DNA of 64,000 bases from Paramacrobiotus metropolitanus (taxonomy: Eukaryota > Tardigrada > Eutardigrada > Parachela > Macrobiotidae). The position numbers were made by a program, and so were the translations under genes. The notes below the pieces were generated by a model that worked only from the letters and a program-made list of their open reading frames with translations, had not been told where the DNA came from and made no database searches. Location of the stretch: the NCBI RefSeq assembly GCF_019649055.1, contig NW_026570379.1:184273-248272 (forward strand), in the 5' to 3' direction. This document shows, in pieces, positions 37,571 through 48,449 of the stretch (position 1 is its first letter; each line of letters starts with the position of its first letter).

Positions 37571-38503
37571 AGTAGTACGTTTGTTTAACTCACGCCAATT
37601 CTGCGCATGTGCATTTGCATTTGCACGGATGCGCAAGTGTGTATGAGCATTTGCACACATGCGCATATGTATAAGTGCATTTGCAATTGCACACATGCGC
37701 ACAAGTATACGATACACCTGTGCATGTGCATCTGCACGGATATGTGGATAAATGGAAATAATTTTGTAAATTTGATTTGTATGCTGACCACAACACAGTA
37801 TGTCGTGATTGAATGTACCATGTACCATGGTACATGGCCCAGGTACATGGTACAGGTACCGTTACCATGGTAACGCGTACCTGGTGCCAAAGTACCAGTC
37901 GCATAATAACAGATATGCATTGGCCTATGAAAATCTAGTTGGTAATTACAAACATGTGTGCATTCTATCTGAAAGTTACGGAAGAAAACTGTTTTCGGCC
38001 ATTGTATACTATCCAATCTTTTTTGAACCATTGCAACTGCTACTGATTTGTTTACCGGGTGTTGATATGATATTGTTGTACTATTCCATGGATTAACCAG
38101 GATTGATAGCCAATTACTTTCAAGCTCTGACGGAATAACGGGTAAGGGGAAAGAAGTAAATGTTTGTTTGGTTTACTTTCGTTTCACCCAGAATTCCGAT
38201 CTTGCGTCAGATTTCGTTCTGTTTGTGTGGATATTTAATTGCATTATTTAAAGCTTTATTGCATTTGATTTACCAGCTTTACTTAATATATGTCGTCATA
38301 AACAACTCCGTTTATCATGGCATCATTTTGTAAATAAAAAACCACAATATCAAACAATGTTTCGTCGGTACATGTGACAAAAGAAATTGCAAACGCTACA
38401 ATTCCAGTTTCTGGATACAAAACGTTTTAATGTGTGAAAACCAGGCTCTGTAAAGTTTGGATTCCAAAACGCCCAGGGTGCCATTGCTATCAAAGGCCAG
38501 CAG
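37571..38503 (+). repeat. Left terminal inverted repeat of the Polinton
   Basis: It begins AGTAGTACGTTTGTTTAACT and is matched in reverse complement by 47343-48269 with few differences. The outer 200 bp hold tandem-like variants of GCGCATGTGCATTTGCA. Further in, a cluster of palindromes (CCATGTACCATGGTACATGG, GGTACC, GTTACCATGGTAAC) precedes the word GTACCTGGTGCCA (37877-37889). Confidence 0.92.
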
Positions 38504-38519
38504 GATACACAATTGAATA

Positions 38520-39065
38520 AATTTATTGCATTGCAATCATTCTACCGACAAAGTCTACAGATATTTGTATGTCATGCATTTCTTTCAATCCCAAAAAATT
38601 GCACTTCCCCGATGGGAAGAGCACAGCCGTAAACCAAGGCAATTTTATACGCAAACCACTAAACAATTCAGGAGTATATTCCAACTTGTAATGTTGGCTG
38701 AATTTCTCAATATGTATACGCACCAAAATCATGAGTGACAACAATATTAACAATTCGAAATCCTGAAACGATACAACGGTACCCAATTGATTGAAGAATG
38801 CTGGTAAACTTGTCGACCAATTCTCTGGCAGCAGATTCCGAACGAGCTCCATTGACCGTGATTTTTCCATTGGAATATAGTTGGCAATGTGCTTTGTAGG
38901 AGAGAGAATACGAAGGAGTAAGCCGGAAAATTTGCGGGGAATATACTGCGCCATCGGTACTTTCTTTCAATCTCCTTCAGATTGAGGATAGTGTTTAAAT
39001 CCGCAACGGCAACGACATTCATGATTTTTGGCATGGCAGTAGAACCACAAACCGAACCGAATAGC
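38520..39065 (-). CDS. TATA-binding-protein-like gene of the Polinton (broken)
   Basis: Reading stretches here carry the hallmark elements of both halves of the TBP saddle. The first repeat resembles NVVAVADLNTILNLKEI, VYSPQIF, LYSNGKITVNGARSESAA and KFTSILQSIGY. The second has YTPELFSGLRIKL and VLFPSGKCNFLGLKE. In cellular TBP the same places read NIVSTVNLGCKLDLKTIA, EYNPKRF, IFSSGKMVCTGAKSEEQS, then YEPELFPGLIYRM and IFVSGKVVLTGAK. Order and spacing match, so TBP homology is clear. As in eukaryotic TBP, the role would be promoter recognition, perhaps of the element's own promoters (inference). About two breaks. It lies first inside the left TIR. Confidence 0.8.
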
Positions 39066-39494
39066 TTTGCGCAGTGTTGTTTGGGGCACATCTGTTAGAC
39101 GGTGATAGACGGGGCAACCTAGTTCCTCAAGATTGACCACTTGGGGCACATAACGCTCCAGTAAACGGCACTTGTCCAAACCCTTGGCATAGAAAGTTAG
39201 CTTACTAGGACGGCCAATACGGTTAAACATGTCTTCCAAGGCAACCGTCACTTGATTGTGTCGATAATCACCAAAGGTGCTCCAGAGAAGCCCATGGGAA
39301 TGCTTGGCCTGTTTCTGCAACTCGCGAGCGTGTTTACCGGCTGATCGTGGTAAGCTGAAGGTGTACTGCCCACTGTCATGTTTTTTTGGGCACGAGAAGG
39401 CCAGCTGTTTGATATATGGTACCTTTTCAATTATAAACCAATCAGCATCTAAAACACATGGCAGAGCCATGGTCAAGACTAGACTGAAATACAC
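38967..39494 (-). CDS. Polinton-associated protein with LEELGCP motif, function unknown
   Basis: A 175-aa frame with LDADWFIIEKVPYIKQLAF, HSHGLLWSTFGDYRHNQV, FYAKGLDKCRLLERYVPQVV and NLEELGCPVYH, ending in a Cys-rich tail (CHAKNHECRCRCGFKH). The acidic LDAD near the start, with distant conserved blocks, could suggest an RNase H-fold or DnaQ-like exonuclease; I am not sure. Its start faces the divergent PC4-like gene across about 150 bp of palindrome-rich DNA. Confidence 0.5.
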   Translation of the reverse strand: MYFSLVLTMALPCVLDADWFIIEKVPYIKQLAFSCPKKHDSGQYTFSLPRSAGKHARELQKQAKHSHGLLWSTFGDYRHNQVTVALEDMFNRIGRPSKLTFYAKGLDKCRLLERYVPQVVNLEELGCPVYHRLTDVPQTTLRKAIRFGLWFYCHAKNHECRCRCGFKHYPQSEGD

Positions 39495-39646
39495 AACTCG
39501 TTTATCACTTCGGCAATAGCAGTTAGTTTATGGTACCTGGTGCCAGGTACTTTACCTGGCACCATGTACCACAGTTGACCTTCAAACATTTGTTTTACAA
39601 CTTGCGTGCGCTCAACATACACTTCATTTGAGTTCAGCTCTGACAA
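39495..39646. promoter_or_regulatory. Bidirectional palindromic promoter region in the Polinton
   Basis: This region separates divergent genes. GGTACCTGGTGCCAGGTAC (39532-39550) is itself near-palindromic and faces an inverted copy (ACCTGGCACCATGTACC). The 13-mer GTACCTGGTGCCA (39533-39545) is identical to one in the left terminal repeat (37877-37889), and the right terminal repeat has the related TGGCACCAGGTAC. A shared control element is inferred. Confidence 0.45.
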
Positions 39647-40330
39647 AATGGAACCATCTCTAAAACGCCGCCGTTCAGACTCGAAGCCTAAAATGCCACT
39701 AGTCAACAAGACTAAGTGCAGTGTCGAGAAGACTCATCCTCGTTTAGCCTTCACAGAGAACGGTCGTCCTGTGTATCGTCTGGGCAACGAGAAATTTGTG
39801 CATGTCGATTATCAGTGGGAAGAAACTCAATTTTTATTGGTGAATGGAAGGAAGGACCGCCCGGGAAATGGAAGCAGACGTGGGCGAAAACGATAAGCCT
39901 TACCAAAAGAGGATTCATGCGCTTGGTATCGTTACTGCTGACGGGAAAAGCCGATCTGGATCATTCCAATGGAAATTTACCTCCTTTATTCTTACTGGAC
40001 CGAGGGTGTACTTCAGCTGGAGCCGTCCTAATCGTGGCTAGCTTTCGCCATCAGCGGTCTCAAGAAGGTGATTTGATGCCCACGAGAAACGGATTTCATT
40101 GAACGAGAAGTGCTACGAAGCGTTGAAAGAACTCATACGGGATTTCACTCTCTTCAAACATATTGTCAGTGTGGACGAAATCGTTGAGGATGTGGATGCG
40201 ACAAAAAGGAGAAGTTGTGCGACGCTATTATTGATGCTATGGTGAAACTAGTTCATGAAAGATGCCCTGATTTCCGACGTGTTAACGGATACGGAATGGA
40301 AAGATGCTGTGCAACGTCTGTTGGATGCTC
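39647..40330 (+). CDS. PC4-like transcription coactivator gene of the Polinton (broken)
   Basis: The only sizeable plus-strand gene of the element. It opens with a basic tail (MEPSLKRRRSDSKPKMPLVN) followed by KFVHVDYQWEETQF, WKQTWAKTISLTK and, later, LNEKCYEALKELIRDFTLFK. The pattern of a strand carrying D/E-rich residues, then KTISLT-type turn and amphipathic helix is that of PC4/p15 single-strand DNA-binding coactivators (cellular form: DIREYW... KGISLNPEQWSQLKEQI), probably with two such units. It is broken, about two or three breaks. Placed head-to-head with the LEELGCP protein. Confidence 0.55.
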
Positions 40331-40793: not shown

Positions 40794-41072
40794 TTATTCT
40801 GAGCAAGCATAGAGAAGTGCTGGAGAATACGTTTCCAACGCTTTACCATACGAATCAAACACTTCCAAGATTCCCTTGGGTTTGTAGCAAAGCAATCCAG
40901 TGTGTGCCATTTTGGTCAGAGGGTCCGTGTTAACTACACATGCTCCAGGGTACGGGGCTAAACATGGCGGAACTTGGTCACTGGCAAACACACCGCGGAA
41001 CAGCTGGGTGGTAACAGGATTTCCTGCAGACAGTGTTGAATTTGCTCCGTGTTCATGTTGAAAAATCCGCAA
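40794..41072 (-). CDS. Adenain-like cysteine protease of the Polinton (fragment)
   Basis: GVFASDQVPPCLAPYPGACV, VVNTDPLTKMAHTGLLCY and LEVFDSYG match the N-terminal half of the adenovirus-type maturation protease found in Polintons (typical FASDxLP, NTDPxxxPGxHW, ExFDSYG). In that family it cleaves capsid precursors. It is a fragment in a broken element and lies next to the capsid gene, as is usual. Confidence 0.75.
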   Translation of the reverse strand: MRIFQHEHGANSTLSAGNPVTTQLFRGVFASDQVPPCLAPYPGACVVNTDPLTKMAHTGLLCYKPKGILEVFDSYGKALETYSPALLYACSE

Positions 41073-41193: not shown

Positions 41194-42360
41194 TCAAAGG
41201 TCCGCGGCCAGTATGTCCTGGTGTAAGGTCAAACCAAATATGGTATATCCTTGATTATATTCGGTGCGGTTGAACGGTAGTCCGCCTTGCAAACTCGGTC
41301 GGTATCCCAGAGTATCGAGCAAACCATCGTAGCACTCCAAGGATAAGTTGTGTTCAAAATCACTTATAGGGTTTGCTAGGAAGCTCTGACCATCCACTTC
41401 CACACTAAGTTGTGTAATGTTGAAATGTTGAAAGTTAAACGGATTCTTTTTGATGGATCCGTGAAAATCTTCGCTATCGACAAATCCAACGAACACGACT
41501 TTGGGTATTTGCCCAATCTGTAGATTGCTGACCACGGTGCTTTGCGTCTTTTGAGGAATGTCCGACACGCGCATAACTATCCGCTCAACATGATATTTGA
41601 CGGTTTTCTTTAACAATTCACCAGCAACAGCTGTCAGAAAATCCGGTGAGGGAATGTAGCGTCGGATAGACAACCGAGCATTGCGAATGAAGGGCTTATG
41701 TTTTCGTGGCATCTTTATCCCACACACGCAGGGCAAATTCAGGGCGGCTGACTACCAGACGGATGTTCACAGGAACCCCTGTACAGTGGTTTGCTTTGGT
41801 CAAACAAGTCCGAAAACAGTCTTCCAGAAAGTTGAACATATTGTCCGGTTTGAAATAAAGCCTTACGGCTCTTTTCTCCTTGATTAGACGTCTCATCGTT
41901 ATGTTTGGCGGGCGTGTCCAAATAGAATGCAGCCGAAGTCAACTGGCTACTTTGAGCCTCTTTGCTATGCGATAGCAATGACTCAAAGTATGCTCGGTAT
42001 GGATAGAACGTGGCGGCATCCGAGATCAGTCGATTGGCTACCGTTACATGACAGGATGAGAAGAGCGAGTGCAAGAAATTATTGACCGGTGCCACCCCAT
42101 CATCCGCGGTTACCAATTCCCAGTCACCGGTAGTTTTACGCACTTTGATGCCCACTTCCAACTCCAATATCATATCTGCCAAACTGAGCAGACCAGCCGT
42201 ACTAGGTGGTATAAAATTAATGTCACCAGCGGATCCATTGTCGGTCAAAATAGTTGTAGGGTTCAGTTTCTCGTGTTCGGTACGCCAGCGGTCGGTCAAT
42301 GTAGGGCAAACAGCTGATTTTCCAGCTGCATGGCCGGTTCGGAATGTTCCATCATGAGCA
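41194..42360 (-). CDS. Major capsid protein (double jelly-roll) of the Polinton (broken)
   Basis: The N-terminal part has VNNFLHSLFSSCHVTVANRL, TFYPYRAYFESLLSHSKEAQ and SQLTSAAFYLDTP, the signature of Polinton/adintovirus-type major capsid proteins. The C-terminal part has KYHVERIVMRVSDIPQK, IPKVVFVGFVDSEDFHGS, FNFQHFNITQLSVEVDGQ and EYNQGYTIFGLTLHQD, the second jelly-roll pattern. It would build hexon-like capsomers. Broken about once or twice. Confidence 0.85.
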
Positions 42361-43730: not shown

Positions 43731-44829
43731 ATCGTGTTCGGGTCCGTAACCTAACCAACGGACTAATGCTTTCTTTCCGCGCCGCTTAACAATAAAATCA
43801 ATTGCGTGTTCCTTATGCTGTGGATTCGAGACTGGTGACAGTTCATGCTCATAAAACGTTCCTTTAATAACTTCATCTTGGTAATCCTTCAAACGATAGA
43901 CCGGAATACGATGCGGATCACCTGATGGATGTAGAAGATTTCTTCTTTGAAACGGTAAGTATACCCTTTTCCACCTTTGTTTTATGCACCGCAATCCGCA
44001 CGGCATCACCGACTTTGTACCGTGGCTTCTTGACGTCTTTGTGCTTGTACAAAGCATTGTACACTGCCAACGAATTGTCTTGCCGTACATCACTGGGTCG
44101 CATACCATGCGCACGGTGTTTGGAATGGTTGTACGAGTACACCAGGTCTTGCATTTTGTCAATATAGCGCGTCGATAAGCGGGACCGAAACAATCGAAAT
44201 ATCCGCGTTTTGATGGTTCGAATAACGCGCTCCGCCATGGAACACTTGATGTCTTCGTTCTCGGAAGTGAAGAACTGAATTTGTTTGTCTTTCAAGTACT
44301 TGGCCACCGTTCTATTCAACATCTCAGTCCCTTTATCATATTGCAGTTTTTCCGGCTCTCCCAAATCATTGAACGCATTGGTTAGCGCTTCCTTGGTATC
44401 AGCACCCGTTTTGGTTTTCAGAGGTTGAATACTGAGTTTCTTGGAAAAACAATCAATAACAAACAGCAAATATTTGTATCCATCGTTTTCCTTCGAATAC
44501 TTGGCTAGATCGGCCAGATCCGCTTGATACTGTTGGCGGAGGTTAGTTGTTATTATGCGGTTGCGCGGGAAGCGTTTGCGTGATTCTTTGTTGACAGTGT
44601 AGGCATCGATCTCCTGCAAGATCGCCTGTGCTTTCGGTTTGTCGGCTCTGGTCTTTAAACTTTTCGGAACCTGTCGACGCCGCCAAGACTTCCGGGATCG
44701 CGAGGGTTCAGATATTTTTTCATCAGTTTCTCCATTATTGCAACAACTGGATACGCAATTGATCTTAAATATCCGACACAGTCGCAATACAGTAGGAAGA
44801 AAGCTGGACATTATGGTAAGGTTATCCAC
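43690..44829 (-). CDS. Retroviral-type integrase with chromodomain (Polinton)
   Basis: The core has QADLADLAKYSKENDGYKY, then LLFVIDCFSKKLSIQPLK (D), KLQYDKGTEMLN (second D) and SMAERVIRTIKTRIFRLF (E), followed by YNHSKHRAHGMRPSDV and an SH3-like KPRYKVGDAVRI. The C-terminus is a chromodomain (YEHELSPV..., then FIVKRRGKKALVRWLGYG with HDSWEPLS), expected to bind methylated histone tails and guide insertion. This is the c-integrase typical of Polintons. About one break. Confidence 0.85.
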
Positions 44830-45737: not shown

Positions 45738-46888
45738 TTAAATTCTGTAGGTGATGATAAAGGGTGCTAACGATTTTACGCGTTCCGACATTTTGGCAGT
45801 TGTGACGAATTTCGATCCAAATAAATCCTCATGTGCTCGTTGGGAAAGATATGGGAGCGAATACGTAAGTATTCTGGGCACGTTGGTCGCAAGTCCAAAA
45901 TTAAAGGTTGGTACGGTAGTAGTGACCTTACTATAAGCAGTAACCAGTTGCTTCAGTCCGGTCTGTCTGGCCAATAATGCTATTTGATTTACATCTCTCA
46001 CGTTTTGAAAAGGACTATATACTGTAGATTGAGGTAGTCCTTCCGCATGACCTTGCCGTAAATAGATTTTGTAGAAGCACGATAACTGAAACATTTTTTG
46101 ATGATTCTTCGCGTAAAATTGCACACGCACGTCTTTGCAGAGATCAGTCGCCAAGTCGTCAATAACAACTAATGTAAACCTTTTCATCTAGTGACTCGGA
46201 ACAGGCAAAGAATTCGTCCAATCCTTTAATAAATTCTCTCACGTTTTGAAAAGGACTAGATACTGTAGATTGAGGGTAATGTCCCGCATGACCTTGCCTT
46301 GCTTAAATAGATTTTGTAGAAGCACGATAACTGAAACATTTTTGTGATGGATTCCGCGTAAAAAAGATTGGCACACCGCACGTCTTTGCAGAGATCAGTC
46401 GCCAAGTCGTCAATAACAACTAATGTAGGCACCTTTTCATCTAGTGACTCGGAACAGGCAAAGAATTCGTCCAATCCTTTAATAAATTCTATAAAAGGGT
46501 TTGCAGATAGTAGCTTTTCGAATCCACTTTGCCAAGCACCGTAACAATAGATAATTTTTGTTGGTGGTTTATCAATCATGCGGTTCCGTTGCTCAATTAA
46601 TGAGAAAACAAACTCTGATTTACCTGACATGGTCGGTCCACAAACACACATCCCAAAGGGCGCACTGAGGCGGATATTCTTTAACAGTACTATACATTTT
46701 GAAAATAATGTTTTCAGTATTGTTCTACGCTTAAATGGCGAATTCAGCAAATTAAGTAATCTGATGTTGAAATTAGAAGCTATCCACCGCTCACGCACAT
46801 GGTTTGATGGTATTCCTTGCTTCAGCCAGCAGAAAAGGTGACACCTTTTCAGCGCTCTTCTGTTCATGTTCATGTCTGCACAAAACAA
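45738..46888 (-). CDS. FtsK/HerA-type packaging ATPase of the Polinton (broken)
   Basis: Walker A appears as CVCGPTMSGKSEFVFSLIE, followed by PPTKIIYCYGAWQSGFEKLL, FIEFIKGLDEFF and Walker B TLVVIDDLATDL. The following part has YSPFQNVRDVNQIALLARQT and QLVTAYSKVTT. This is the A32-like genome-packaging ATPase of Polintons. Broken, perhaps two breaks. Confidence 0.85.
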
Positions 46889-46951
46889 TAACGAGTCTAT
46901 TTAAGCACTGCAAACACAACACAAGGTGCATAACATGGCTGGGCTACAGAT

Positions 46952-47089: not shown

Positions 47090-47342
47090 ATCAGACATTA
47101 CGTAATATGACGCTATAACTCACATCCTGCGTTCCGTCTCTTCGACAAAGGTGAGGCAATAAAGATAAACGAGATGCCCGATAAAGAATGTAACCCTAAG
47201 TCCTTTGTTCAGACCGCAGATCCCGAATACCATGTGGAGGGGACTGATGTCCGTAAATAACGACCATTCCGTATTTCGGGAGTTCTTCGACACAAAAAAG
47301 GTGGATCTACGGTGCTTAAATACTTGCAAATAGTGGGAAGCA

Positions 47343-48269
47343 CTGCTGGCCTTTGATAGCAATGGCACCCTGGGCGTTTTGGAATCCAAACTTTACAGAG
47401 CCTGGTTTTCACACATTAAAACGTTTTGTATCCAGAAACTGGAATTGTAGTGTTTGCAATTTCTTTTGTCACATGTACCGACGAAACATTGTTTGATATT
47501 GTGGTTTTTTATTTACAAAATGATGCCATGATAAACGGAGTTGTTTATGACGACATATATTAAGTAAAGCTGGTAAATCAAATGCAATAAAGCTTTAAAT
47601 AATGCAATTAAATATCCACACAAACAGAACGAAATCTGACGCAAGATCGGAATTCTGGGTGAAACGAAAGTAAACCAAACAAACATTTACTTCTTTCCCT
47701 TACCCGTTATTCCGTCAGAGCTTGAAAGTAATTGGCTATCAATCCTGGTTAATCCATGGAATAGTACAACAATATCATATCAACACCCGGTAAACAAATC
47801 AGTAGCAGTTGCAATGGTTCAAAAAAAGATTGGATAGTATACAATGGCCGAAAACAGTTTTCTTCCGTAACTTTCAGATAGAATGCACACATGTTTGTAA
47901 TTACCAACTAGATTTTCATAGGCCAATGCATATCTGTTATTATATGCGACTGGTACTTGGCACCAGGTACGTTACCATGGTAACGGTACCTGTACCATGT
48001 ACCTGGGCCATGTACCATGGTACATGGTACATTCAATCACGACATACTGTGTTGTGGTCAGCATACAAATCAAATTTACAAAATTATTTCCATTTATCCA
48101 CATATCCGTGCAGATGCACATGCACAGGTGTATCGTATACTTGTGCGCATGTGTGCAATTGCAAATGCACTATACATATGCGCATGTGCAAATGCTCATA
48201 CACTTGCGCATCCGTGCAAATGCAAATGCACATGCGCAGAATTGGCGTGAGTTAAACAAACGTACTACT
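47343..48269 (-). repeat. Right terminal inverted repeat of the Polinton
   Basis: Reverse complement of 37571-38503 with few differences. The outermost 65 bp recur 180 bp further out (48385-48449, ending CGTACTACT), so the end was extended by a tandem duplication or two ends recombined. Confidence 0.92.
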
Positions 48270-48449
48270 GTGTACATACAAATAAATTTACAAAATTAAT
48301 ATCCAAATCGGCTGCACATGCACAAAACTTTGCCGGTGAATTGAAATGCACTTTACGATGCGCGTGCAAATGCTCATACACACTTGCGCATCCGTGCAAA
48401 TGCAAATGCACATGCGCAGAATTGGCGTGAGTTAAACAAACGTACTACT
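48270..48449 (-). repeat. Duplicated outer end of the Polinton TIR
   Basis: The last 65 bp exactly repeat the TIR terminus (TGCGCATCC...CGTACTACT). The rest is a diverged version of the subterminal part. It stops 39 bp before the rhomboid exon at 48489. Confidence 0.8.

Follow-up and report, generated by a model that had tools for sequence, protein, structure and literature searches.

A TATA-binding-protein-like gene is a regular, selected component of Polintons in the tardigrade Paramacrobiotus metropolitanus and may provide these elements with their own promoter recognition

The analysed window, a 64,000-nucleotide stretch of contig NW_026570379.1 of Paramacrobiotus metropolitanus, contains a decayed Polinton copy of 10.9 kb, inside which lies a broken gene for a TATA-binding protein (TBP) (Table 1). 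The initial annotation had placed this gene within the terminal repeats of a Polinton, and this was confirmed: the element is bordered by terminal inverted repeats (TIRs), whose arms are composed of blocks of 86-357 bases found by a repeat search to be 99-100% complementary, and between them lie an integrase of the rve type and capsid-like, ATPase-like and protease pieces. The right TIR includes a 71-base direct duplication (48200-48270/48380-48450). In this single copy, a search reaching 10 bases around each end (37571 and 48449) found no 6-base target-site duplication; its right end is duplicated, and its true end is uncertain.

Table 1. Features of the Polinton copy in the window and of selected related copies (positions in the related copies are those of the respective stretch)
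Feature	Position	Strand	Evidence and remarks
Left terminal inverted repeat	37571..38503		99-100% complementary blocks; begins AGTAGTACG
Right terminal inverted repeat	47343..48449		repeat search and inspection of the ends
TBP-like gene, broken across three frames	38523..39091	-	PF00352: 34.7 bits (38707-38970), 36.9 bits (38523-38954), 16.5 bits (38747-39091, N-terminal side); cut-off 22.9
ADW, 175-codon open frame; fold weakly resembling DEDD 3'-5' exonucleases	38967..39494	-	directly upstream of TBP
PC4-like protein pieces	39606..40102	+	tblastn to L007 protein; divergent from ADW-TBP
Adenovirus-type protease piece	40794..41072	-	tblastn, 79% to L013
Major-capsid-like protein, two pieces	41194..42299	-	candidate label; sequence comparison with relatives
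Retroviral-type integrase core	43918..44829	-	rve 46.3 bits (cut-off 32.6)
Packaging-ATPase-like pieces, internal duplication	45738..46888	-	tblastn to L013; direct repeats D2, D3
TATTTAAG site	44764..44771	-	in window element
TATTTAAG site	46302..46309	-	in window element
TATTTAAG site	46898..46905	+	in window element
TATTTAAG site	47315..47322	-	in window element
PC4-like protein, L003	2517..3230		
PC4-like protein, L013	6209..7045		
BIR protein, L003	675..1349	-	76.3 bits
BIR protein, L017	558..1160		weaker tblastn match; such matches also in L024, L025, L026, L027, L029

The PC4-like and protease pieces of the window had no match in Pfam, and the ATPase-like piece had no A32 match there. 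DNA polymerase B (PolB) was not found in the window with the partial PolB proteins of three relatives as queries; because of this, and because its genes are broken, the window element is regarded as a short, decayed copy. Within its ATPase gene (45994-46490) there are direct repeats of 60-64 bases, placed 241-253 bases apart, which are a sign of local rearrangement. The TIR arms are nearly identical despite the broken genes, a combination possibly explained by recent insertion together with assembly errors, or by gene conversion. The published P. metropolitanus assembly was produced with Canu and, in the part of the source consulted, ONT reads are mentioned (PMC11191345), so some of the frame breaks may be assembly errors.

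The TBP-like gene had been recognised from four peptides representing both repeats of the TBP saddle, and all four were found in minus-strand frames of the interval given in Table 1. When the Pfam profile PF00352 was run on each reading stretch separately, two of the three pieces exceeded the cut-off, the piece on the N-terminal side falling below it, and a PDB sequence search with the two larger pieces returned TBPs (best E 7.4e-8 and 1.1e-6). Since the pieces occupy three frames, with at least three frame changes, the gene is not intact in the assembled window copy. A related copy on contig C111 (stretch L013) encodes a TBP whose best match to the window, interrupted by a stop, has 68% identity, and a capsid-like protein that is the closest to that of the window among the matches listed (95%).

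A PF00352 search of the genome yielded 150 listed matches, from 493 candidates, which were merged into 122 TBP genes, and at least 148 capsid-like loci were obtained after merging. Among the matches listed, 84 of the 122 TBP genes are situated within 15 kb of a capsid-like gene, the chance expectation for a random place being at most about 2.6%. With hand-picked matches of further TBP searches added, a TBP gene lies within 15 kb of 131 of the 148 capsid-like loci, and within 8 kb of 127 of them; the other 17 loci have no TBP within 15 kb among the matches listed. The rve profile was also tried as a genome-wide Polinton marker and was dropped, being swamped, apparently, by retrotransposons.

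Twenty stretches of approximately 10 kb, chosen for the presence of TBP and for variety, were fetched, and all 20 contain other Polinton genes, arranged in three gene orders; this is also true of L030-L032, chosen without a nearby capsid-like gene among the matches listed. A stop-free TBP frame of at least 165 codons, which may fall short of the whole domain, is present in 32 of 40 fetched copies (19 of the 20 long stretches and 13 of 20 further short stretches), these 40 being drawn from the best-scoring profile matches, with a bias toward preserved copies. PF00352 scores reached 133.6 bits in L003 and 106.7 bits in L007, with two matching segments in each protein. The typical Polinton functions were recognised in L013, with DNA_pol_B_2 at 99.7 bits (cut-off 25.8), Peptidase_C5 at 22.2 bits (cut-off 21.3; L020, with 20.4, is just below), Pox_A32 at 24.8 bits (cut-off 22.8; L024, with 16.5, is below) and rve above its cut-off. 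PolB lies beyond TBP in several relatives (e.g. on C111), and several PolB genes were detected beside TBP genes. The capsid-like proteins of the relatives had no match in Pfam and none in a PDB sequence search; they are candidates for the double jelly-roll major capsid protein, conserved in position and sequence, and their label is presumed from known Polinton capsid proteins. Two P. metropolitanus TBPs resembling those of Polintons (P0051 and P0121) bear the public name 'TATA-box-binding protein-like'.

The neighbourhood of the TBP gene contains further genes. Among the 20 stretches, ADW is located directly upstream of TBP in L013-L021, with a weak match in L018, and in L030-L032; it was not seen in L022-L029. 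Its structural model (pLDDT 90.3) weakly resembled DEDD exonucleases in the PDB (best 1.1e-3, followed by RNase AS and oligoribonucleases), no structure match being obtained at E 0.001 or better. As judged by eye, seven of 27 close ADW relatives (P0240, P0246, P0247, P0260, P0261, P0265 and P0266) match a TBP relative in source and record length (P0018, P0047, P0033, P0036, P0019, P0015 and P0053, respectively), which suggests that the ADW-TBP pair may exist outside the P. metropolitanus assembly. Proteins of about 151 residues containing the ADW motifs KGLEKCRLL and NLDDYGCPK (P0267-P0359; one cluster has 1088 members, and many are encoded on long records) probably represent a larger family of exonuclease-like proteins that extends beyond this genome. 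Many TBP-bearing Polintons also encode a PC4-like protein (a transcription coactivator p15 or a single-strand binder). With the PC4 profile (cut-off 25), L003 scored 34.1 bits, L013 was below the cut-off (23.3) and L007 gave no match. Because TBP and the PC4-like protein are both present, the element carries two proteins of basal-transcription type. Proteins with BIR (inhibitor of apoptosis) domains were observed near TBP in several Polinton copies.

Polinton TBP copies evolve under purifying selection. From 29 distinct TBP coding sequences (406 pairs), 21 pairs, which are not independent, had a usable synonymous divergence (0.1-1.5), and their median dN/dS (NG86) was 0.134, with a maximum of 0.458. 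Values of 0.40-0.46 came from four L037 pairs and two distant L017 pairs, the remaining 15 pairs not exceeding 0.16.

The descent of these proteins was analysed in two trees, a quick one with 78 rows and a careful one restricted to 60 of them. Among the 18 rows dropped from the careful tree were near-copies, the longest branch and also P0133, labelled type II beforehand but placed among cellular TBPs by the quick tree. In both trees environmental relatives are intermixed with the Polinton TBPs of this genome; the best 61 relatives in the protein search (P0001-P0061) have E 1.1e-38 or better. Two types of TBP were distinguished, type I, which includes the relatives of the window copy (L013), and type II, comprising L026-L029 and their relatives. 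The careful tree gave support values (bootstrap/SH-aLRT) of 93/96 for type I, 100/99 for type II and 99/92 for both types together, a grouping that received 90 in the quick tree. Type II is a second, very divergent type of TBP with environmental relatives of its own (P0088, P0122-P0131). Scans of IMG/VR with TBP, the capsid-like protein, PolB and one environmental TBP gave no confirmed relative. An integrase scan of this database gave five loci, of which L053 alone looks Polinton-like by its frames; no TBP match at E <=1 was found within 12,081 of its 17,398 bases.

On C4 the host has a canonical TBP gene of its own, whose product lacks the residues common to the Polinton proteins and clusters with plant and protist TBPs and one insect protein. 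The Polinton TBPs and their environmental relatives form a clade apart from the host TBP. Topologies tested on the quick tree that unite the host TBP with type I, or the host TBP and the insect protein with both types, were rejected (p-AU 0.0065 and 0.021, respectively). These results bear directly on the possibility that a host TBP gene or pseudogene was recently captured by one Polinton copy, or that a Polinton was inserted beside one. The initial annotation had named two outcomes that would refute it, the lack of a significant TBP profile match and a host TBP pseudogene captured once in this copy, and neither was borne out. The broken window copy, taken alone, does look like a pseudogene, but more than 100 other capsid-like loci have an adjoining TBP, the 20 fetched stretches showing three gene orders, and the copies are under purifying selection. 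Recent capture from the host is refuted by this recurrence, by the trees and by the AU tests, and we regard it as extremely improbable. An ancient capture of TBP from an unsampled eukaryote may have taken place; deeper placement of the Polinton TBPs is unsure because long branches are present.

Modelling of the intact L013 protein (175 residues) gave a pLDDT of 96.1 and a pTM of 0.87, and its matches at ranks 1-44 among PDB structures were all TBPs or TBP fusions (TMq 0.84-0.92), with 27-31% identity to the solved eukaryotic TBPs. According to this model, the Polinton TBP is a complete two-repeat saddle with both stirrups. The DNA contacts were examined at positions given in yeast numbering. 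Three of the four DNA-intercalating phenylalanines (F99, F190 and F207) are invariant in the 46 rows of type I and the fourth, F116, is Y in 45 of them; N159 is kept in 46/46 and N69 in all 44 ungapped rows (two are gapped). T124 and T215, contact residues for the two central base pairs in the TATA box, have been exchanged, the former for N (46/46) and the latter for L (44) or V (2). In the 16 rows of type II, F190 and F207 are present in all, F99 and N159 in 15 and N69 in 11, while position 215 is L in 16/16 and position 124 is N in 10/16. The replacement of both threonines fits an altered rather than a copied DNA specificity, as far as can be read from the alignments. On the TFIIB side, E188 is kept in 42/46 type I rows and E186, presumably also a TFIIB contact, in 17/46.

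TBP-like domains are known in some nucleic-acid enzymes, and the TBP-fold protein might act in DNA replication, terminal-repeat recognition or packaging instead of transcription. The location of TBP between PolB and the exonuclease-like gene in several copies would suit such a role, as would the nearby PC4-like protein, which could bind single strands, and a match to DUF3378 on L003 (E 0.035). A full-length saddle with both stirrups, whose structural matches at ranks 1-44 are transcription TBPs, points the other way, and so does a TATA-like motif that occurs upstream of some Polinton genes and constrains synonymous codons; we consider this alternative unlikely.

This motif emerged from a set of 94 upstream regions of 120 bases from 12 stretches, with start codons chosen by script. 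The top over-represented octamer, TATTTAAG, occurs in 12 of the 94 regions vs 0.36 in dinucleotide shuffles (maximum 3 in 200 shuffles), 24-93 bases before the start codon. The motif thus precedes a minority of the genes, and seven of these 12 occurrences fall at a single homologous position where the ATPase gene ends. The canonical TATAWAAR was found upstream in 4/94 regions vs 1.17, which is within the shuffle range (maximum 5). Throughout the 12 stretches there are 33 copies of TATTTAAG vs 5.2 expected, none of them in the type II stretch L027; all 11 type I stretches (L022 being counted as such by similarity only) contain the motif, with 4.8 copies expected from an order-3 background. Among 11,210 octamers TATTTAAG ranks 33rd by raw z-score, those ahead of it being restricted to at most five stretches; with its reverse complement, it is the only one with z >6 in all 11 type I stretches. 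The octamer TATTAAAG is enriched as well (21 vs 6.9 expected in 12 stretches), so the promoter signal may be broader. The strong TATA box TATAAAAG differs from TATTTAAG solely at its two central bases, and we infer a link between TATTTAAG and the Polinton TBP.

Could the signal have nothing to do with TBP and simply be a by-product of base composition or of the encoded protein? The motif is AT-rich and its commonest position is inside the ATPase gene, where the codons of the residues Y-L-R spell TATTTAAG in 12 of the 14 type I stretches showing the site (9 of 11 non-redundant); it is missing there in L013, the near relative of the window copy, and in L022. It is also absent from this site in all four type II stretches (0/4), an absence accompanied by a residue change, since their protein reads N-L-R. 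Against such a by-product, the order-3 background predicts far fewer copies than were found, and individual stretches also have sites upstream of the genes for ATPase, ADW and INT. Moreover, in 10 rows with 78 conserved ATPase columns, the two most codon-constrained columns are the adjacent L and R of this site (p 6.8e-5 and 8.6e-5; the third has 0.016), L being TTA in 9/10 and R being AGG in 7/10. Because these synonymous codons are so unusually uniform, far more so than at the 76 other conserved columns, a DNA signal seems to be conserved here beyond the protein, and we judge the by-product explanation quite unlikely. For type II TBPs neither TATTTAAG enrichment nor a convincing motif of their own was found. 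The octamer TTTATAAA, the top one in two type II stretches, was considered as a type II variant of the TATA box and dropped: 2 of its 11 sites in four type II stretches lie 15-200 bases before an open frame of at least 70 codons.

In the window, all four TATTTAAG sites are within the element, with 3.47 expected over the whole window, and none occurs in the 52 kb outside it, taken as host DNA, vs 2.5 expected. This last result is relevant to another view of the protein, in which it would act as a competitor, occupying promoters of the host or its TFIIB and thereby reducing host transcription, with TATTTAAG simply being read by the host TBP. The partly kept TFIIB-contact stirrup (E188) would be compatible with competition, but the change of both central-contact threonines in all 46 type I rows and the lack of TATTTAAG in the host part of the window argue against it, making a competitor improbable.

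We therefore return to the reading of TBP as a Polinton gene in its own right. It is probable that it is a standard, selected gene of these elements, which encodes a complete two-repeat TBP saddle not of host descent and acts as an element-encoded core promoter factor. The proposal of the initial annotation that this lineage brought its own promoter-recognition factor gains support from the predicted fold, the kept DNA contacts and the conserved TATA-like motif, which are consistent with such a role. The protein would bind TATTTAAG-type elements 20-95 bases upstream of Polinton start codons and bend DNA like cellular TBP, while its partly kept C-terminal stirrup would recruit host TFIIB and RNA polymerase II; the element might thereby gain core promoters independent of host TBP/TFIID. 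More tentatively, these features may together constitute an orthogonal core-promoter system, in which an ancient non-host TBP with changed central contacts co-evolved with TATTTAAG and borrows the host polymerase II.

Few transcription factors are as conserved as TBP, and small nuclear viruses usually borrow that of their host. Because the Polintons have preserved their own TBP and also a start signal that looks as if it matches, promoter recognition at their genes may be their own and not that of the host. If true, the keeping of TBP across divergent Polinton lineages would make these elements virus-like transposons that supply promoter recognition themselves, with consequences for how Polintons are silenced or switched on in the germ line. 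They would also offer a natural test of the co-evolution of TBP and TATA box, in which two central-contact residues are replaced and the candidate box differs at two central bases.

The Polintons of P. metropolitanus share with known animal Polinton/Maverick (adintovirus-like) elements the TIRs, rve integrase, DNA_pol_B_2, adenovirus-type protease and A32-type ATPase, and differ from them by the conserved TBP gene. A term search of the main text of papers on Polintons or Polinton-like elements found neither TBP nor TATA (PMC11071308, PMC10120064, PMC8097293, PMC4028283), and in PMC12220804 there was none outside the reference list. Among the matches listed, and as far as the literature was searched, neither a TBP in animal Polintons nor the Polintons of tardigrades were the subject of any paper. 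The parts are thus known singly, the pairing of TBP with Polintons being unreported in the literature as far as searched.

It had been noted that large DNA viruses encode TBP-like proteins, and this holds for mirusviruses, nimaviruses and NCLDVs. In the part of the source consulted, a TBP gene cluster is reported from 59% of mirusvirus genomes vs 0% of those of Nucleocytoviricota (PMC10132985), and a further study describes TBPs as occurring sporadically in a green alga, in elements putatively derived from mirusviruses (PMC10675990). Structure matches of the Polinton TBP in BFVD included viral TBPs, such as that of Heterosigma akashiwo virus, with at most 18% identity among the matches listed. 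Mirusviruses and NCLDVs therefore resemble the Polintons in encoding a TBP, and differ from them in this low identity, in their giant genomes and in their hosts. According to the portion consulted of PMC4506587, the nimaviruses (white spot syndrome virus and its fossil relatives) encode a TBP that is placed in a tree near NCLDV viruses with weak support, and a table there lists proteins of 818 and 891 residues. They are, like Polintons, DNA entities of animals with a TBP; however, as far as this source goes, they are large viruses with a long TBP, in contrast to the bare 175-residue saddle of the Polintons. With the cellular TBPs, including that of the host, the Polinton protein shares the two-repeat saddle and the residues F99, F190, F207, N69 and N159, and it differs from them by T124N, T215L and F116Y and by its position in a separate clade.
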